From positions 62,001 to 126,000 of IMG/VR virus record IMGVR_UViG_3300017917_002466: a DNA stretch of 64,000 nt, one strand, 5' to 3'. The first letter of the stretch is position 1, and each line of letters starts with the position of its first letter. The notes beneath the pieces are model-generated. The model saw only the letters and a program-made list of their open reading frames with translations, had not been told where the DNA came from and made no database searches. The DNA comes from a virus. Below are positions 6,477-49,548 of the stretch, in pieces. The translations under genes and the position numbers were made by a program.

Positions 6477-6664
6477 CCAAAGAACAAAAAGATTTTATTC
6501 AAGCCCTTTTATCTGAAGTGTATGTAAGAAATAAAGAAGGATTAAATACGTTACGAAAAAATGACGATAATCCTTTAGCAGAAGCCGAATATCTTACGAG
6601 AATGAAATTCATTGAGGAAACGTATAAAGAGGTTGAAAGGTATGGTAAGATGGAAAGTCAATAA
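6473..6664 (+). CDS. small protein of unknown function
   Basis: 63 aa, starting with an ATGA overlap on the primase stop, so translation is coupled. Charged and helical by composition; no recognised motif. Its 3' end overlaps the next small gene by 23 bases, as is common in this tightly packed block. Confidence 0.65.
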   Translation: MTKEQKDFIQALLSEVYVRNKEGLNTLRKNDDNPLAEAEYLTRMKFIEETYKEVERYGKMESQ

Positions 6665-28929: not shown

Positions 28930-28985
28930 AGGATGAGTTCAGCAATCAAAAATTCTTATTAAAAAAGAAAACAAGTTCATCCTGT
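28930..28985 (+). ncRNA. R-element copy R1 (in the tRNA array)
   Basis: Closing stem AGGATGA (28930-28936) with TCATCCT (28977-28983), followed by GTG. Conserved loop block GTTCAGCAATCAAAA just inside the stem, then a short A-rich interior. No coding potential. Confidence 0.7.
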
Positions 28986-29256: not shown

Positions 29257-29564
29257 ATGCCAAAAGCCACAAAGGAAAATCAACCTTAACAGTTGTAGGT
29301 GAAACTGAAGATGGTAAGAAAGTTGTCAGAGGATTGTTTTTAATAAGCACTTCAATAACTGGATTACCTTTAGAAGATTGCTTAGAAATTTTGAAAAAGA
29401 ATAATCTTGTGGTAGATTGGATAGACTTTATAGAAGATGCTATCAAGTATAAATGGAAGATGGAAAGAACATTGATAAAGATAGAAACATCAGTTGAAGA
29501 AGTTTACGGAAAAGAATATTGTCAAGAAGTAATGAAAAGAATTAAAGGATGGGTTCAGCAATAA
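29257..29564 (+). pseudogene. small gene with an early frameshift
   Basis: AAAGGAG at 29242-29248 points to the ATG at 29257, whose frame stops after 10 codons (MPKATKENQP). The coding-like sequence GKSTLTVVGETEDGKKVVRG... continues in another frame to a stop at 29562, with no in-frame start except a poorly placed TTG at 29334. So the gene is broken early, or the sequence has an indel there. Its last codons contain the 5' part of R-element R2. Function unknown. Confidence 0.55.
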
Positions 29565-29665
29565 AAATCCATTACAAGGCGCGTGTCGGTGGTTCGATTC
29601 CATCCGCTCCCACATTACTGGAGTGTAGCTCAGTTGGTAGAGCAGCAAAAAAAAGTCCATCCTGA
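29546..29665 (+). ncRNA. R-element copy R2 enclosing a permuted tRNA-Val
   Basis: Closing stem AGGATGG (29546-29552) with CCATCCT (29657-29663); loop block GGTTCAGCAATAAAAA. The interior holds a tRNA in reversed half order: a 3' half (29571-29614: anticodon loop ATTACAA, T arm GGTGGTTCGATTCCATC, acceptor CGCTCC) and then a 5' half (29620-29646: GGAGTG acceptor, D arm GCTCAGTTGGTAGAGC). GGAGTG pairs with CGCTCC. Read circularly the body is tRNA-Val(TAC)-like. Confidence 0.7.
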
Positions 29666-29771: not shown

Positions 29772-29832
29772 AGACTGGTTCCAGCAAACCAAAACTATTT
29801 GCTTGTTAAGCAAACAAAGTAATCCAGTCTGA
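29772..29832 (+). ncRNA. R-element copy R8
   Basis: Closing stem AGACTGG (29772-29778) with CCAGTCT (29824-29830); loop block TTCCAGCAAACCAAAA (one extra C). The interior is a hairpin TTTGC-TTGTTAA-GCAAA, which has the 5-bp stem and 7-nt loop of an anticodon arm with GTT at the anticodon position. Confidence 0.65.
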
Positions 29833-33130: not shown

Positions 33131-33433
33131 ATGAAGATGGTTCCGTTGTACAATAAGTTGATTGTTGAACTTCTTCCCGAAGAGTCCGAAAAGAGATCAG
33201 CAACAGGTTTAATTCTTCCGGGAAAAATTTCTCCGTATTACAGGGGAAAGGTGACTGGTGTTGGTAAAGGTCATTATCAAAATGCTCAAAGAATTCCAAT
33301 GGATGTTAAGGAAGGAGATATTGTAGTCTTCTTAAAGAACTGTGGAATGGGAATTGAGTTTGATAACGGAAATAACCCAACAAAGCTTATTTTGGATGAT
33401 ACAAATATTTACGCAGTAGAGGAAAACGACTAA
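33131..33433 (+). CDS. groES: GroES-like co-chaperonin
   Basis: 100 aa. Cpn10 family: N-terminal VPLYNKLIVELLPEE, mobile-loop region around ATGLILPGK, then GKVTGVGKG and VKEGDIVVFLKNCGMGIE, ending in the final beta strand. T4 encodes a functional analogue (gp31) for folding the capsid protein. The ATG at 33131 has AAAGGAGG upstream. Its position inside the tRNA array is notable. Confidence 0.87.
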   Translation: MKMVPLYNKLIVELLPEESEKRSATGLILPGKISPYYRGKVTGVGKGHYQNAQRIPMDVKEGDIVVFLKNCGMGIEFDNGNNPTKLILDDTNIYAVEEND

Positions 33434-33488
33434 ATTGTCACAGCCAAACTGGGAATTTTAGATCAAAAATAAAAAAATTGTATATAAA

Positions 33489-41135: not shown

Positions 41136-41570
41136 ATGAACTACCTAACAACTCGCTCGCATGATTTACCATCACTTTTTAACGACCTATTTTTCAGAGA
41201 CTTTTTTGGCGATGATTTTTTTAGCCCGCTTCCTGCATTGAAGAAAATTGATTATCCTGTTGACATTTATGAAACGGAAGAAGGCTTGAATCTTGATATT
41301 GCCGCTGTTGGACTTGATAAGCCAGATGTGAAAATAGACATTAAGGATGATGTTCTTACTATTTCACACGCAAAAGAAGCCTCTACTGAAAAAGAAGGGA
41401 AGTATGCCTATCGTGGCATCACCCAGAAATCTTTCAAGTTGGCTTGGCGTATCAATGAGAAGTTTGATTTAACAAAGACCAAAGCTTCTCTTGAAAAGGG
41501 ACTTTTGAAAATCACTATTCCTGTGGCACCTGAAAAGAAAGCCAAAGAAATAGAAGTTCAGATTCAATAA
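41136..41570 (+). CDS. hsp20: Hsp20 small heat-shock protein
   Basis: 144 aa alpha-crystallin-domain chaperone that keeps unfolding proteins soluble. N-terminal DLPSLFNDLFFRDFF; domain core PVDIYETEEGLNLDIAAVGLDKPDVKIDIKDDVLTIS; C-terminal LEKGLLKITIPV plus the K-IEVQIQ tail. AAGGAGG upstream. Similar genes are known in cyanophages. The 5' and 3' flanks can pair with each other over 14 bases. Confidence 0.9.
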   Translation: MNYLTTRSHDLPSLFNDLFFRDFFGDDFFSPLPALKKIDYPVDIYETEEGLNLDIAAVGLDKPDVKIDIKDDVLTISHAKEASTEKEGKYAYRGITQKSFKLAWRINEKFDLTKTKASLEKGLLKITIPVAPEKKAKEIEVQIQ

Positions 41571-41599: not shown

Positions 41600-41611
41600 G
41601 AAAAAAAGACC

Positions 41612-41640
41612 TTGACAGACTCGTTGAAAGAATATATTAG
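41612..41640 (+). promoter_or_regulatory. sigma70-type promoter for the R-element array
   Basis: TTGACA 41612-41617; TATATT at 41633-41638 (15-bp spacer) or TATTAG at 41635 (17 bp). The first R-element begins about 40 bases downstream. Confidence 0.7.
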
Positions 41641-41679: not shown

Positions 41680-41815
41680 AGAGTAGGTTCTGCAATCAAA
41701 ATAATACTTAAAGGAAGTCCCAATGTCATAGCCGGGGACACAAAATAATCGGTTGTGGTGGACTTTTATTAATTGAGAAAGTTAGTTCTAAAAGAAATAA
41801 TCTGACTACTCTGGG
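41680..41815 (+). ncRNA. R-element copy R0
   Basis: Closing stem AGAGTAG (41680-41686) with CTACTCT (41806-41812); loop block GTTCTGCAATCAAAA. The interior carries GTCCC...GGGAC and further A/U-rich hairpins. A CTTTGACAAA string precedes it. Non-coding. Confidence 0.7.
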
Positions 41816-41836
41816 AATTACTAAATTATGGCTTAA

Positions 41837-41969
41837 AGGATGGGTTCGGCAAACCAAAATAGCCCGAAAGGGCATCAAGGTAGCCGTCAATAAAAGGCGG
41901 CGGAGAGGAAGTTAAACTTGCAAAGGCTTCCCTCTCTAAAATAAAAAAGAAACCTTTCTAACATCCTGT
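41837..41969 (+). ncRNA. R-element copy R3
   Basis: Closing stem AGGATG (41837-41842) with CATCCT (41962-41967), followed by GT. Loop block GGTTCGGCAAACCAAAA. Interior hairpins GCCC-GAAA-GGGC, GCCG...CGGC and GAGAGG...CCTCTC. Confidence 0.75.
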
Positions 41970-41996
41970 AGCTTATTCTTTGACAAACGCATCTAA

Positions 41997-42134
41997 AGGA
42001 TGAATTCGGCAACCAAATTTGATGCGAAAGCATCACTATAACAGGTTATAAGCTGCGACACCGAAAGGTGACCAGATACTAACCAAGGTTTTTTGGAGAC
42101 TTTTCCCTAAATAAAAATCTTTCAAGCATCCTGT
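41997..42134 (+). ncRNA. R-element copy R4
   Basis: Closing stem AGGATG (41997-42002) with CATCCT (42127-42132), then GTG. Loop block ATTCGGCAACCAAAT. Interior hairpins GATGC-GAAA-GCATC and CACC-GAAA-GGTG. CTTTGACAAA precedes it. Confidence 0.75.
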
Positions 42135-42152
42135 GATGTTTTCAAAAAGACC

Positions 42153-42181
42153 TTGACAAACTTGTGAGAAGATATTATATT
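42153..42181 (+). promoter_or_regulatory. sigma70-type promoter inside the R-element array
   Basis: TTGACA 42153-42158, 17-bp spacer, TATATT 42176-42181. Would transcribe R5-R7 and the Ro-like gene. Confidence 0.83.
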
Positions 42182-42230
42182 AAGAAAGAGGGCAGAAAAT
42201 TTCGGTAAAATGATATATACATATTCGGGA

Positions 42231-42321
42231 AGGATAGATTCAGCAAACTAAAAGGAAAATAGCTCGCAAGAGCTTATTTGGTTCAAATCCAAAAACGTCG
42301 CAAGACGAAAAACTATCCTGT
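42231..42321 (+). ncRNA. R-element copy R5
   Basis: Closing stem AGGATAG (42231-42237) with CTATCCT (42313-42319), then GTG. Loop block ATTCAGCAAACTAAAA. The interior has AGCTC-GCAA-GAGCT, a T-arm-like TTTGGTTCAAATCCAAA and CGTC-GCAA-GACG. Confidence 0.75.
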
Positions 42322-42342
42322 GACCTACAAGATAATAAATGA

Positions 42343-42401
42343 AGGGTGAGTTCAGCAACTCAAAAACAAACAACTCATAATTGTTAAAAAGTTCACCCTG
42401 T
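42343..42401 (+). ncRNA. R-element copy R6
   Basis: Closing stem AGGGTGA (42343-42349) with TCACCCT (42393-42399), then GT. Loop block GTTCAGCAACTCAAAA. Short interior. Confidence 0.75.
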
Positions 42402-42435
42402 TTTTTCTACAGTTCGGATTGAAAGAAAGTTTTGA

Positions 42436-42486
42436 AGGTTGGATTCCGCAATTAAAATCCATAATTAGGAAAAAAGACCAACCTGT
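42436..42486 (+). ncRNA. R-element copy R7
   Basis: Closing stem AGGTTGG (42436-42442) with CCAACCT (42478-42484), then GT. Loop block ATTCCGCAATTAAAA. Shortest copy, 28 bases before the Ro-like start codon. Confidence 0.75.
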
Positions 42487-42513
42487 AACCTTTAATGTTT
42501 AGGAGGCCCGCAA

Positions 42514-43986
42514 ATGGCTAAGACTCGCACGAACGAAGGCGCAATTCAGTACGACCACTCTCTCGACCACGCAGTTGAGTTCTTCTCAAAGGCCGGTTCA
42601 ATTTATTCCAAGAAGGCAAAGGGCAAGCGCCCATTCTACGGCAACGAGCAGTCCGCTCTTGAGCTTTTCAAGGCCGTCTGGTGCTCAGGTAACCACGAAA
42701 TGGCTATGAAGCTTATGTTCTGGCTTCGTGACTGCCGTGGTGGAGCAGGAAACCGTTCCGCTTTCCGTGATTGTTTGAAGTGGGTTACTGAGACTGACCC
42801 GCGCTGGGTTAAGGCCAACATTGGTCTTGTTCCTGAGCTTGGTCGTTGGGACGACCTTCGTGTTCTTAACGGAACTGATGCTGAGGCCGTTGCGACTAAG
42901 ATTTGGGCTGAGGCAGTTGCCAAGAAGGACGGTCTTGCCTGTAAGTGGGCTGACCGTTCAGACACCAACATTCTTCGTGAGCTTCGTAAGGCGAAGATTG
43001 TCAAGGACATTGGCGAATTCCGTCGTCTTCTTGCGGCTGGCCGTAAGAACATTGTTGAGCGTGCAATGTGTTCAGACCGTTGGAACGAGATTGAGTATCC
43101 TCACGTTCCTTCTGTTGCAATGAGCCGTTACACCAAGGCTTTCAACAAGCACGACGAAGCCCGCTTCTCCAAGTTCAAGGAGAAGGTTCAGAAGGGTGAG
43201 GCTAAGATCAATGCAAGCGTATTGTTCCCTCACGACCTTGTTCGTACCTTGAAGGCTGATGGAGACTGTGAGATTGCAGATGCACAGTTCAATGCAATGC
43301 CAAACTGGGTCGGTGATAGCAAGCTTCGTATCATCACTCTTTGTGACTCTTCGGGTTCAATGGGTTGTGATATTGGTGGAAGCGTACAGGCAATTGATGT
43401 TTCAACTTCATTGTCATTGTACTGCTCAGACCGTATTCCAAAGGATTCTCCGTTCCACCGTAAGTTCATCCAGTTTGAGTCTGAGTCCAAGTTGACTGAC
43501 TGGGCTGGTATGACTTTCTCCGAGGCTTATGGCTACGGTAAGAAGGTAACTTCTCGTCGTCGTGGATTCGGATATGGTCAGGGAATCTTTGATGGTGCTT
43601 GTGGTGGTACTCGTATTGACACTGCACTTGATATGTTGCTCAACCACGCCAAGATGTTCAAGGCTACGAATGAGCAGGTTCCGAATATGATTCTTATTAT
43701 CTCTGATATGCAGTTCCACGGCGTACCAGATGGAACCAACGGCAAGACTGTTGTTGAGCATTGCCTTGAGAAGTGGGAAAAGGCCGGATACACTCGTCCA
43801 AAGATTGTTTACTGGAACCTTTCTGGTTATGCCGGTTCACCAGCAACAGTCACTCACAAGGACGTTGGTATGGTTTCTGGATTCTCTCCGAGCATCCTTG
43901 AAGCCATTATGAAGGCCGAAGACTTCACTCCAATGGGTATTATGCTCAAGAAACTTGAGAAGTACAAGGTTGCTATCCCCCAGTAA
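42514..43986 (+). CDS. Ro60/TROVE-like (DUF2828) protein with a vWA domain
   Basis: 490 aa. The N-terminal two thirds are alpha-helical with the DUF2828/TROVE-type block LMFWLRDCRGGAGNRSAFRDCLKW ... LVPELGRWDDL, the region that forms the RNA-binding ring in Ro proteins. The C-terminal third is a von Willebrand A domain with MIDAS motif DSSGSMG near residue 278 and ISDMQF near residue 395. Ro proteins bind misfolded RNAs and Y RNAs, often with a nuclease. Directly preceded by six R-elements. Its GC content and codon use are clearly higher than in neighbouring genes. AGGAGG upstream; strong terminator downstream. Confidence 0.82.
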   Translation: MAKTRTNEGAIQYDHSLDHAVEFFSKAGSIYSKKAKGKRPFYGNEQSALELFKAVWCSGNHEMAMKLMFWLRDCRGGAGNRSAFRDCLKWVTETDPRWVKANIGLVPELGRWDDLRVLNGTDAEAVATKIWAEAVAKKDGLACKWADRSDTNILRELRKAKIVKDIGEFRRLLAAGRKNIVERAMCSDRWNEIEYPHVPSVAMSRYTKAFNKHDEARFSKFKEKVQKGEAKINASVLFPHDLVRTLKADGDCEIADAQFNAMPNWVGDSKLRIITLCDSSGSMGCDIGGSVQAIDVSTSLSLYCSDRIPKDSPFHRKFIQFESESKLTDWAGMTFSEAYGYGKKVTSRRRGFGYGQGIFDGACGGTRIDTALDMLLNHAKMFKATNEQVPNMILIISDMQFHGVPDGTNGKTVVEHCLEKWEKAGYTRPKIVYWNLSGYAGSPATVTHKDVGMVSGFSPSILEAIMKAEDFTPMGIMLKKLEKYKVAIPQ

Positions 43987-46205: not shown

Positions 46206-46280
46206 ACGCCTGTAGCAGGGATCGAACCCGCGCAGACAGAAATTTAGAGTTTCCCGCTCTAGCCGCTGAGCTATACAGGC
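46206..46280 (-). tRNA. amber suppressor-type tRNA (anticodon CTA)
   Basis: Minus strand. Acceptor GCCTGTA/TACAGGC, D arm GCTC/GAGC, anticodon stem GGAAA/TTTCT with loop CTCTAAA, so anticodon CTA at positions 34-36, reading UAG. T arm GCGGGTTCGATCCCTGC, G73; no CCA encoded. All arms are intact. The amino acid cannot be read from sequence; G73 would allow Gln. It lies apart from the main array, at the 3' end of the leftward operon. Confidence 0.87.
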
Positions 46281-48221: not shown

Positions 48222-49535
48222 TTAATCCCTATCATAACCATCACCAGCCTTCATATTCAGAATTGGTATAATTCTGTTTATGATTTTAGCTGTTGGCTCA
48301 ATAGCTTTTTCAATTATTTCTGGATTTTTATAAGCTAAAGGAGACTCGTCTTTTGGTTTTTGTGATGCGTAAACTCCTTTCATAGCTTCGTTAGCCATTT
48401 CATCAGTAATAGTTTTTTTAGCTTGCGATCTTGACATTAGTCTTCCAAATCCGTGCGGAGCCGAGCAATTCCATTCAGTATTTGATTTCCCCTCACAAAT
48501 TAAAGAACCAAAAGAAGGACTTCCGGGAATAATCATTCTCTCACCCTTATAAGAACGGATAGAACCCTTACGGATAATGAAGTCACGGAAGTCAATAAAG
48601 TTATGGACAGTCTCAATCCTGTCAATCTCGTTGACTCCAAGAATCTTCAAAATGGCTGAGGCGATATAAGCCCTATTGACTTCCGCATACTTCTGTGCGA
48701 AAATCATATCATACAAGTATCCGTTTGCATTCTCACCCTCTAGGTACTGAAGCTCGTCGGAAACAATAGCATCCAAACCAAGCTCAGCACGAGCCTTCTT
48801 GATTTGAGCCTTGATTTCCATACCAGTATAGGTCTTACGGATTTCATCAATACGAGACTTCAACAAATCCTGCTTATCCTTACGGACAACAGAAGAAGCC
48901 ATATTCTGCCAATAGTCACATACACACTTTCCAAAGTTACGAGAACCAGTGTGAATTACAATCCAATAGTTACCATTGTCGTCCTTTCCAATTTCAATGA
49001 AGTGGTTACCCCCACCAAGCGAACCAAGTGACTTAACAGCACGACCAAGGTTAGCACCAATGTCATTGCACTTCTGAACGAACCAACGATAGTCATATCC
49101 ATCAAAGTACGAGTTGGTTCCAAACTTCTGATTGTAGGCCAATGAGAAGTTATGAGCCAATCCACGAACTTCGCGGTATGGGAAATCCCTTTCCATATTG
49201 AGAACGGACTTATCGTGAGTCTCAATACCAAAAGGAACTGACTGACGAATCTTGTGGTCAAGCTGTTCCAAAGCGATAGGAAGGTTCTGGCCGATGTTGA
49301 TTGCCAACATTCCACAGCCAATATCCACAGAAACAACGGCGGGAATTATCTTCTCTGACATTTCCATTGTAAATCCAATACAGCTAGACTTACCAGAATG
49401 ACAGTCAGGCATAATAGCAATAGGATTAGTAAAAGCAGGATGATTAGACATTTGAGTAATTTGAGCAACACAAGACTCCTCAACATTGTCAATCATTACT
49501 TTAGCCTTCGTATACTTACCAACAATCTCAAACAT
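48222..49535 (-). CDS. rtcB: RtcB-like RNA ligase
   Basis: 437 aa from an ATG 6 bases after GGAGG. RtcB joins 2',3'-cyclic phosphate or 3'-phosphate ends to 5'-OH ends, in tRNA splicing and RNA repair, using GTP and Mn. Signature motifs: IMPDCHSGK near residue 42, VDIGCGM near 70, SLGGGNHFIEI near 165 and a C-terminal CSAPHGFGRLMSR containing the guanylylated-His region. In Enterobacteria rtcB shares an operon with rsr (Ro) and Y RNAs; this phage also encodes a Ro-like protein, 5 kb away. Confidence 0.93.
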   Translation of the reverse strand: MFEIVGKYTKAKVMIDNVEESCVAQITQMSNHPAFTNPIAIMPDCHSGKSSCIGFTMEMSEKIIPAVVSVDIGCGMLAINIGQNLPIALEQLDHKIRQSVPFGIETHDKSVLNMERDFPYREVRGLAHNFSLAYNQKFGTNSYFDGYDYRWFVQKCNDIGANLGRAVKSLGSLGGGNHFIEIGKDDNGNYWIVIHTGSRNFGKCVCDYWQNMASSVVRKDKQDLLKSRIDEIRKTYTGMEIKAQIKKARAELGLDAIVSDELQYLEGENANGYLYDMIFAQKYAEVNRAYIASAILKILGVNEIDRIETVHNFIDFRDFIIRKGSIRSYKGERMIIPGSPSFGSLICEGKSNTEWNCSAPHGFGRLMSRSQAKKTITDEMANEAMKGVYASQKPKDESPLAYKNPEIIEKAIEPTAKIINRIIPILNMKAGDGYDRD

Positions 49536-49548
49536 TACCATCCTCCAA

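Follow-up and report, generated by a model that had tools for sequence, protein, structure and literature searches.

Candidate Y-type RNAs with covarying ends beside phage genes for DUF2828, a protein of predicted Ro60 fold

What is the purpose of six structured elements standing in tandem, with no protein-coding gene among them, directly in front of a phage gene for a Ro-like protein? The question is raised by a 64 kb stretch of phage DNA, bases 62001-126000 of the 253,664-base IMG/VR record IMGVR_UViG_3300017917_002466; this stretch is the window below, it was scanned on both strands, and positions are counted from its first base. The six elements (R0 and R3 to R7) lie between hsp20 (41136-41570) and a gene whose product carries the domain DUF2828. 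Ro proteins and their Y RNAs have been known for decades, their roles are debated and few bacterial examples have been studied. A preliminary description of the locus had proposed a phage Ro-Y RNA system as a candidate, and that interpretation is supported here by sequence comparison and structure prediction. The elements are very probably Y-type small noncoding RNAs that partner the DUF2828 protein, a ring protein with the Ro60 fold.

The paired end and its association with DUF2828 genes

Elements were located with a strict rule, fixed on the window and on Aeromonas phage 4_4572. It requires a Watson-Crick stem of 7 base pairs (bp), or of 6 bp with one further base unpaired, immediately ahead of the block.T.C.GCAA, with the second strand at most 260 nucleotides (nt) away and then a G. 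In the window the rule has nine matches on the + strand; the - strand has none. All six elements initially described are found again, now with coordinates (Table 1), and three further copies stand in the tRNA array. The interval of about 940 bases between hsp20 and the DUF2828 gene is free of genes as first described, its longest open reading frame being of at most 54 amino acids. The nine copies are 49-136 nt long and have little common sequence beyond the shape of the stem, the block and the ends, A(A)G...CTG. The stem length of 6-7 bp given at first stands, with the correction that R3 and R4 have 6 bp and one unpaired base ahead of the block. GT after the 3′ strand holds as the typical end but not for R0, the least typical copy, which has GGG. 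As for the loop block, originally RTTCNGCAA-N2-AAAA, its first part is sound while the AAAA part is loose (R4 reads CCAAATTT); what is kept across phages is.T.C.GCAA, mostly NTNCAGCAA. Interiors vary, with a T-arm-like hairpin (TTTGGTTCAAATCCAAA) in R5, hairpins of other kinds in R3 and R4, and none or one in the short forms. No Rfam family exceeds its cut-off in the array at curated thresholds, and the array DNA has no nucleotide similarity to any of 50,697 phage records.

The pairing was followed in 80 unrelated viral DUF2828 loci fetched by protein alone. In these the strict rule has 111 matches on the gene's strand, spread over 59 loci, versus 3 on the opposite strand and 0-3 in shuffled sequence (about 2 expected). 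The G after the 3′ strand became a condition once these loci had been inspected for the first time; if it is dropped, the gene's strand has 116 matches and the other strand 14, and shuffles have 8-12. Most of the elements lie no more than a few hundred bases 5′, or shortly 3′, of the DUF2828 gene, and between them the elements have 69 distinct stems. For 51 short elements the covariation score is 0.83, shuffles giving 0.20 and slid structures at most 0.17. The pair counts of these 51 are partly circular, the sequences having been picked for pairing, and are replaced by a test in which sites were chosen by the 5′ motif alone. A complementary 3′ strand followed by G is present at 95 of 142 such sites on the gene's strand, where 2.0 would be expected, and at none of 10 on the other strand. 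The early observation that the stems differ in sequence and stay paired thus extends, as covariation, across phages. Aeromonas phage 4_4572 has at least 8 such elements before its DUF2828 gene, whose product is 34% identical to the window protein.

A covariance model of the element, termed R1 and with E-values that are rough, has 91 matches in 89 phage loci, many of which also supplied training sequences, and every match is on the gene's strand. Whole DUF2828 phage records have R1 matches in 33 of 36 cases. Out of sample, 80 bacterial and archaeal DUF2828 loci (from Ruminococcus flavefaciens, Synergistaceae, Chloroflexi, a Woesearchaeote and others, some of them possibly prophages or binned phage contigs) have 44 matches, 44/44 on the gene's strand and for the most part immediately 5′ of the gene. 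The converse search, of viral contigs by element pattern alone and leaving out contigs already in the DUF2828 set, found DUF2828 in 31 of 43, and in 21 of the 22 with a length of at least 60 kb. The sole large element-bearing contig with no DUF2828 match is G031 (the record behind locus L209; 176,803 bases), which may represent a chance match, an overlooked gene or an element without the protein. Among 27 random viral contigs of at least 21 kb, two have DUF2828 and exactly those two have elements; the two are possibly close relatives and count as about one case, the informative part being the 25 negatives. These control contigs are a random 14-mer sample, and RtcB as a handle gave one locus only. 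Elements are therefore not equally common without a Ro-like gene (0/25 without it, 2/2 with it), and the clustering with DUF2828 genes for which a covariance-model search had been suggested is what that search finds: matches track the gene in phages, bacteria and archaea.

The Ro60 fold and the YrlA module

By Pfam the window protein consists of DUF2828 and DUF7788, and in PHROGs it is phrog_850, 'RNA-binding protein' (E 1.3e-93). Relatives occur in 665 phage records, and the DUF2828 family is also on record in plants. The TROVE domain, PF05731, has no Pfam match in the window protein. Its AlphaFold model has a mean predicted local distance difference test score (pLDDT) of 87, and the top seven matches to it that Foldseek finds in the PDB are all Ro60 or Rsr, the best with E 5.6e-7 and a template-modelling (TM) score of 0.60, while the next match after them has E 0.04. 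Residues D278, S280, S282, T366 and D398 are invariant in 30 proteins and intact in the window protein; D278/S280/S282, T366 and D398 we take, from general knowledge of von Willebrand factor A (vWA) domains, to be the metal ion-dependent adhesion site (MIDAS). Because the structure matches and the MIDAS residues are invariant with PF05731 absent, the window protein has, on its predicted model, the Ro60 fold while falling outside Pfam's TROVE family, and the initial naming of the gene as Ro60/TROVE-like is borne out at the level of fold.

The same protein family comprises phrog_850, the mycobacteriophage 'Ro-like RNA binding protein' and CKA15_055 of a Listeria phage, the difference being that in the records looked at neighbouring RNAs of the present architecture are unannotated. 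In the Listeria phage, CKA15, virions contain the Ro-like protein, and noncoding RNAs of very high abundance have been reported from nearby (PMC12282133). Its elements sit between CKA15_056 and CKA15_055. The Y RNA candidates proposed for that phage are other RNAs than these, and CKA15_059-061, a different abundant noncoding RNA, make up most of its late transcripts. In the literature no paper was found that pairs 'DUF2828' with 'phage'; the key Y RNA papers were outside reach and may hold an earlier notice, and priority for part of the findings possibly lies with work on mycobacteriophages.

A tie to known Y RNAs is inside one of the copies in the tRNA array. The interior of the copy that starts at 29546 has the 3′ part of a tRNA (T arm and acceptor strand) followed by the 5′ part (acceptor strand and D arm), and this permuted tRNA-like module, at 29581-29646, matches positions 24-84 of the 114 of YrlA (RF02553) with E 2.3e-5. 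One of the nine window copies has such a module and the other eight are without it. Ten of 15 YrlA module matches examined, this phage's included, are nested in stem-and-block elements of about 110-160 nt, and the ten include most of the top-scoring matches; one further match, in locus L107, has a variant block. Mycobacteriophage Nicholasp3 (L005 ~6540-6640, equivalent to L111 ~570-730) has a YrlA module between two R1 elements, enclosed by the stem GGACTCC/GGAGTCC with the variant block CTACAGTAA, and this sequence suggests that the block motif may tolerate GTAA.

The end on which YrlA itself is bound by Ro is not that of the elements; the terminal positions differ, and the YrlA end is without the block. 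The first-envisaged constant Ro-binding part with variable modules changes in this respect: the YrlA module is inside the element, and the constant end is not of YrlA type but resembles that of the Class I RNAs of Dictyostelium. A canonical bacterial TROVE locus (L388 1363-2211) has four successive YrlA RNAs (49-92 bits) and no stem-and-block element, which fits but is a single canonical case, TROVE comparison loci being few in number. An array was initially thought exceptional for Y RNAs, which does not hold, as arrays are not unusual in the present system and L388 has four. Since the YrlA module is nested in the elements and also occurs on YrlA's own end, the sequences indicate that one effector module occurs with two different ends, and that each of these ends belongs to a Ro branch of its own.

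The likeness to Rsr/YrlA systems (RF02553; RYPER of Deinococcus, rsr-yrlBA-rtcBA of Salmonella) has several parts. Both have a Ro60-fold protein beside noncoding RNAs, a constant stem that pairs the ends, an exchangeable module, and arrays; one copy in this phage has the tRNA-like module of YrlA, and RtcB is encoded near. The differences are that the phage protein is DUF2828 and by Pfam not TROVE, that a short covarying stem with NCNGCAA forms the phage end whereas YrlA has the ends GCGAAUGC.../...GUCGCC, and that most phage copies are without a tRNA-like module. In established work on Rsr and YrlA, reviewed in PMC8394870, YrlA links Rsr to PNPase, an exonuclease, and DusA and TruB modify the tRNA-like domain of YrlA. 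In Salmonella, RtcB is part of the operon, which is activated in response to broken tRNAs (PMC7790460).

A possible mechanism and its alternatives

If the elements are Y-type RNAs, the two ends of each would pair into the stem of 6-7 bp, and this stem, together with the NTNCNGCAA block left unpaired immediately inside, is predicted to be the constant part that docks on the Ro-like ring. Since the sequence of the stem is free to vary, its shape and the block would be what is read. The interior could then be an exchangeable module, acting as tether or decoy. Short forms of about 50-60 nt, with little beyond a loop, might serve as a lid on the ring, and the hairpins or tRNA-like domain of long forms may bring tRNA-handling proteins or exonucleases to it. 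Transcription would proceed from promoter-like stretches 5′ of R0 and R5, which are consensus matches only. In this phage the system could be engaged in RNA quality control, or in repair of the products of its 36 tRNA genes, alongside the phage's own RtcB. With 36 tRNA calls in the window (ARAGORN) and that RtcB, tRNA quality control or resistance to host anticodon nucleases is, by analogy, the most natural guess.

Several points weigh against pairing the elements with the protein in this way. What the analysis shows is the elements, their pairing, their association with DUF2828, the fold and the nested modules; transcription and binding are inferred, as are the separate tasks of short and long forms and the part played in tRNA upkeep. 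At the sequence level the link to Ro is weak (Ro60 at E 0.06, and vWA_Ro60 matched weakly in 3 of 27 relatives). R1 finds nothing in 3 of the 36 DUF2828 phages, either because the pairing is not universal or because variants were missed. The YrlA match in the window has 33.8 bits, below the family cut-off of 69. Finally, the abundant Listeria phage RNAs CKA15_059-061 (L263 2577-2887), considered as elements, were rejected: they are encoded some 1 kb farther upstream, and neither stem nor block is matched in them.

Of the other explanations, the one that fares best has the elements as cis-acting leaders, structured parts of the hsp20/DUF2828 mRNA through which the Ro-like protein would autoregulate its own synthesis. 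The six copies between hsp20 and DUF2828 are on the strand of the gene, as are, always, R1 matches in other loci, and this is as expected of leaders. However, the remaining three copies are about 13 kb off in the tRNA array, the elements of many phages are 3′ of the gene or kilobases distant, and copies with a tRNA-like module would be atypical as leaders; we consider the explanation unlikely. Quite unlikely, too, is that the elements are true noncoding RNAs bound by another protein, with the Ro-like gene merely a frequent neighbour. The RNA class closest to them, the Class I RNAs of Dictyostelium considered below, does have as its known partner a protein with an RNA recognition motif (RRM), Rnp1A (PMC7919456). 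Against a different partner here is that DUF2828 predicts presence and absence of the elements in random contigs, phages, bacteria and archaea, and that Y-RNA modules are enclosed in them. A Type III toxin-antitoxin system, with the repeats as RNA antitoxins for a toxin encoded downstream, would account for structured repeats in tandem immediately 5′ of a single gene but hardly for a gene product with the Ro60 fold, nor for copies, some far from the gene, that are alike only in stem shape and block and so diverse in length, and it deserves next to no weight. The same is true of dispersed palindromic repeats (like repetitive extragenic palindromes, REP, or miniature inverted-repeat transposable elements, MITE) or tRNA-gene remnants without RNA function: three copies are among tRNA genes and one has permuted tRNA halves, but stem and block are kept with different stems across phages despite the lack of array DNA similarity, all copies share one orientation, unlike mobile repeats, and chance-level pairing is contradicted by the test with the 5′ motif alone.

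Coordinates, neighbours and a possible amoebal counterpart

Table 1. Elements, partner gene and promoter-like stretch in the window. R1 scores are in bits; R6 and R7 were included in the R1 training set.
Feature	Position	Strand	Length	Stem	Block	Remarks
R0	41680..41812	+	133 nt	AGAGTAG/CTACTCT	GTTCTGCAA	interior folded; strict rule
R3	41837..41967	+	131 nt	AGGATG/CATCCT	GTTCGGCAA	several hairpins inside; strict rule
R4	41997..42132	+	136 nt	AGGATG/CATCCT	ATTCGGCAA	several hairpins inside; strict rule
R5	42231..42319	+	89 nt	AGGATAG/CTATCCT	ATTCAGCAA	R1 34.5
R6	42343..42399	+	57 nt	AGGGTGA/TCACCCT	GTTCAGCAA	short form; CTGT end; R1 48.2
R7	42436..42484	+	49 nt	AGGTTGG/CCAACCT	ATTCCGCAA	short form; CTGT end; R1 47.7
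tRNA-array element	28930..28983	+	54 nt	AGGATGA/TCATCCT	GTTCAGCAA	short form; CTGT end; R1 53.5
tRNA-array element	29546..29663	+	118 nt	AGGATGG/CCATCCT	GTTCAGCAA	R1 32.8
tRNA-array element	29772..29830	+	59 nt	AGACTGG/CCAGTCT	TTCCAGCAA	short form; R1 43.6
Ro60-fold protein (DUF2828 + DUF7788 vWA)	42514..43986	+	490 aa			Pfam, AlphaFold, Foldseek
Promoter-like TTGACA-17-TATATT, 5′ of R5-R7	42153..42181	+				consensus match only

The promoter-like stretch in the table overlaps one of two 29-nt direct repeats (41603-41631 and 42144-42172) that are 83% identical and have TTGACA inside. The related copy at 41603 (AAAAAGACCTTGACA...), which is 5′ of R0, is likewise recognised by consensus only, and the two may be duplicated promoters, one for each half of the array. 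Outside the main tRNA array there is a tRNA-Pyl with anticodon CTA (ARAGORN; 46207-46280, - strand), possibly an amber-suppressor tRNA to judge by its anticodon. The RtcB RNA ligase is encoded at 48222-49541 on the - strand (Pfam E 7e-59). Within the tRNA array a small GroES-like reading frame (MKMVPLYNKLIVELLPEES...) was spotted by eye at 33132-33434 on the + strand.

The closest known RNAs come from social amoebae. Class I RNAs of Dictyostelium, of about 60 nt, start with AAG, end with CUGU and have a 6-bp stem rich in compensatory changes, an 11-nt motif beside the 5′ strand and a variable interior, and according to PMC7919456 no other organism that was examined has them. The phage elements are like them (RF01414) in that stem pairing is kept by compensatory change, that a motif ending NCNGCAA is beside the 5′ strand, that the interior is variable and that short forms are of about 60 nt. 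The AAG start and CUGU end are those of most short phage forms, among which CTGTN and CTGAN dominate, and not of R0. In the Rfam RF01414 consensus the 11-nt motif is CCUUACAGCAA, and some short phage elements carry CCTTACAGCAA letter for letter; of the motif positions T3, C6, C9, A10 and A11, the phage elements keep C6, C9, A10 and A11, with the T kept at 4 and not at 3. The Rfam Class I model, from amoebae only, has 7e-6 as its best E-value per phage genome; of the 23 matches that it makes at E <=0.01, 20 are R1 elements (counted by hand). Its cut-off of 41.5 bits is not reached, the score being 24.7 in the window (28930-28983) and 34.9 at best elsewhere. The two also differ in that the hosts here are phages, bacteria and archaea, that many copies are longer and that in amoebae the known partner has an RRM. 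The likeness could reflect either common descent or convergence on one and the same Ro surface. It is a possibility to be taken seriously, though short of probable, that Class I RNAs form a single family with the elements of phages, bacteria and archaea, and that this family is made up of the Y-type RNAs of a DUF2828 branch of Ro. If it is true, a DUF2828 Ro-like protein would bind Class I RNAs, and phages, bacteria, archaea and eukaryotes would share a second, ancient Ro-RNA system.

A second branch of Ro with an RNA end recognisable as its own, and common in phages amenable to laboratory culture, would provide many small natural ligands that differ in nothing but their modules. Should this branch hold, constant end and effector module would have been exchanged independently, because the YrlA module occurs on two kinds of end. 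The orphan Class I RNAs of Dictyostelium would gain, in DUF2828, a concrete candidate for a partner, and many phage genes now listed as 'hypothetical' would become testable ribonucleoproteins.
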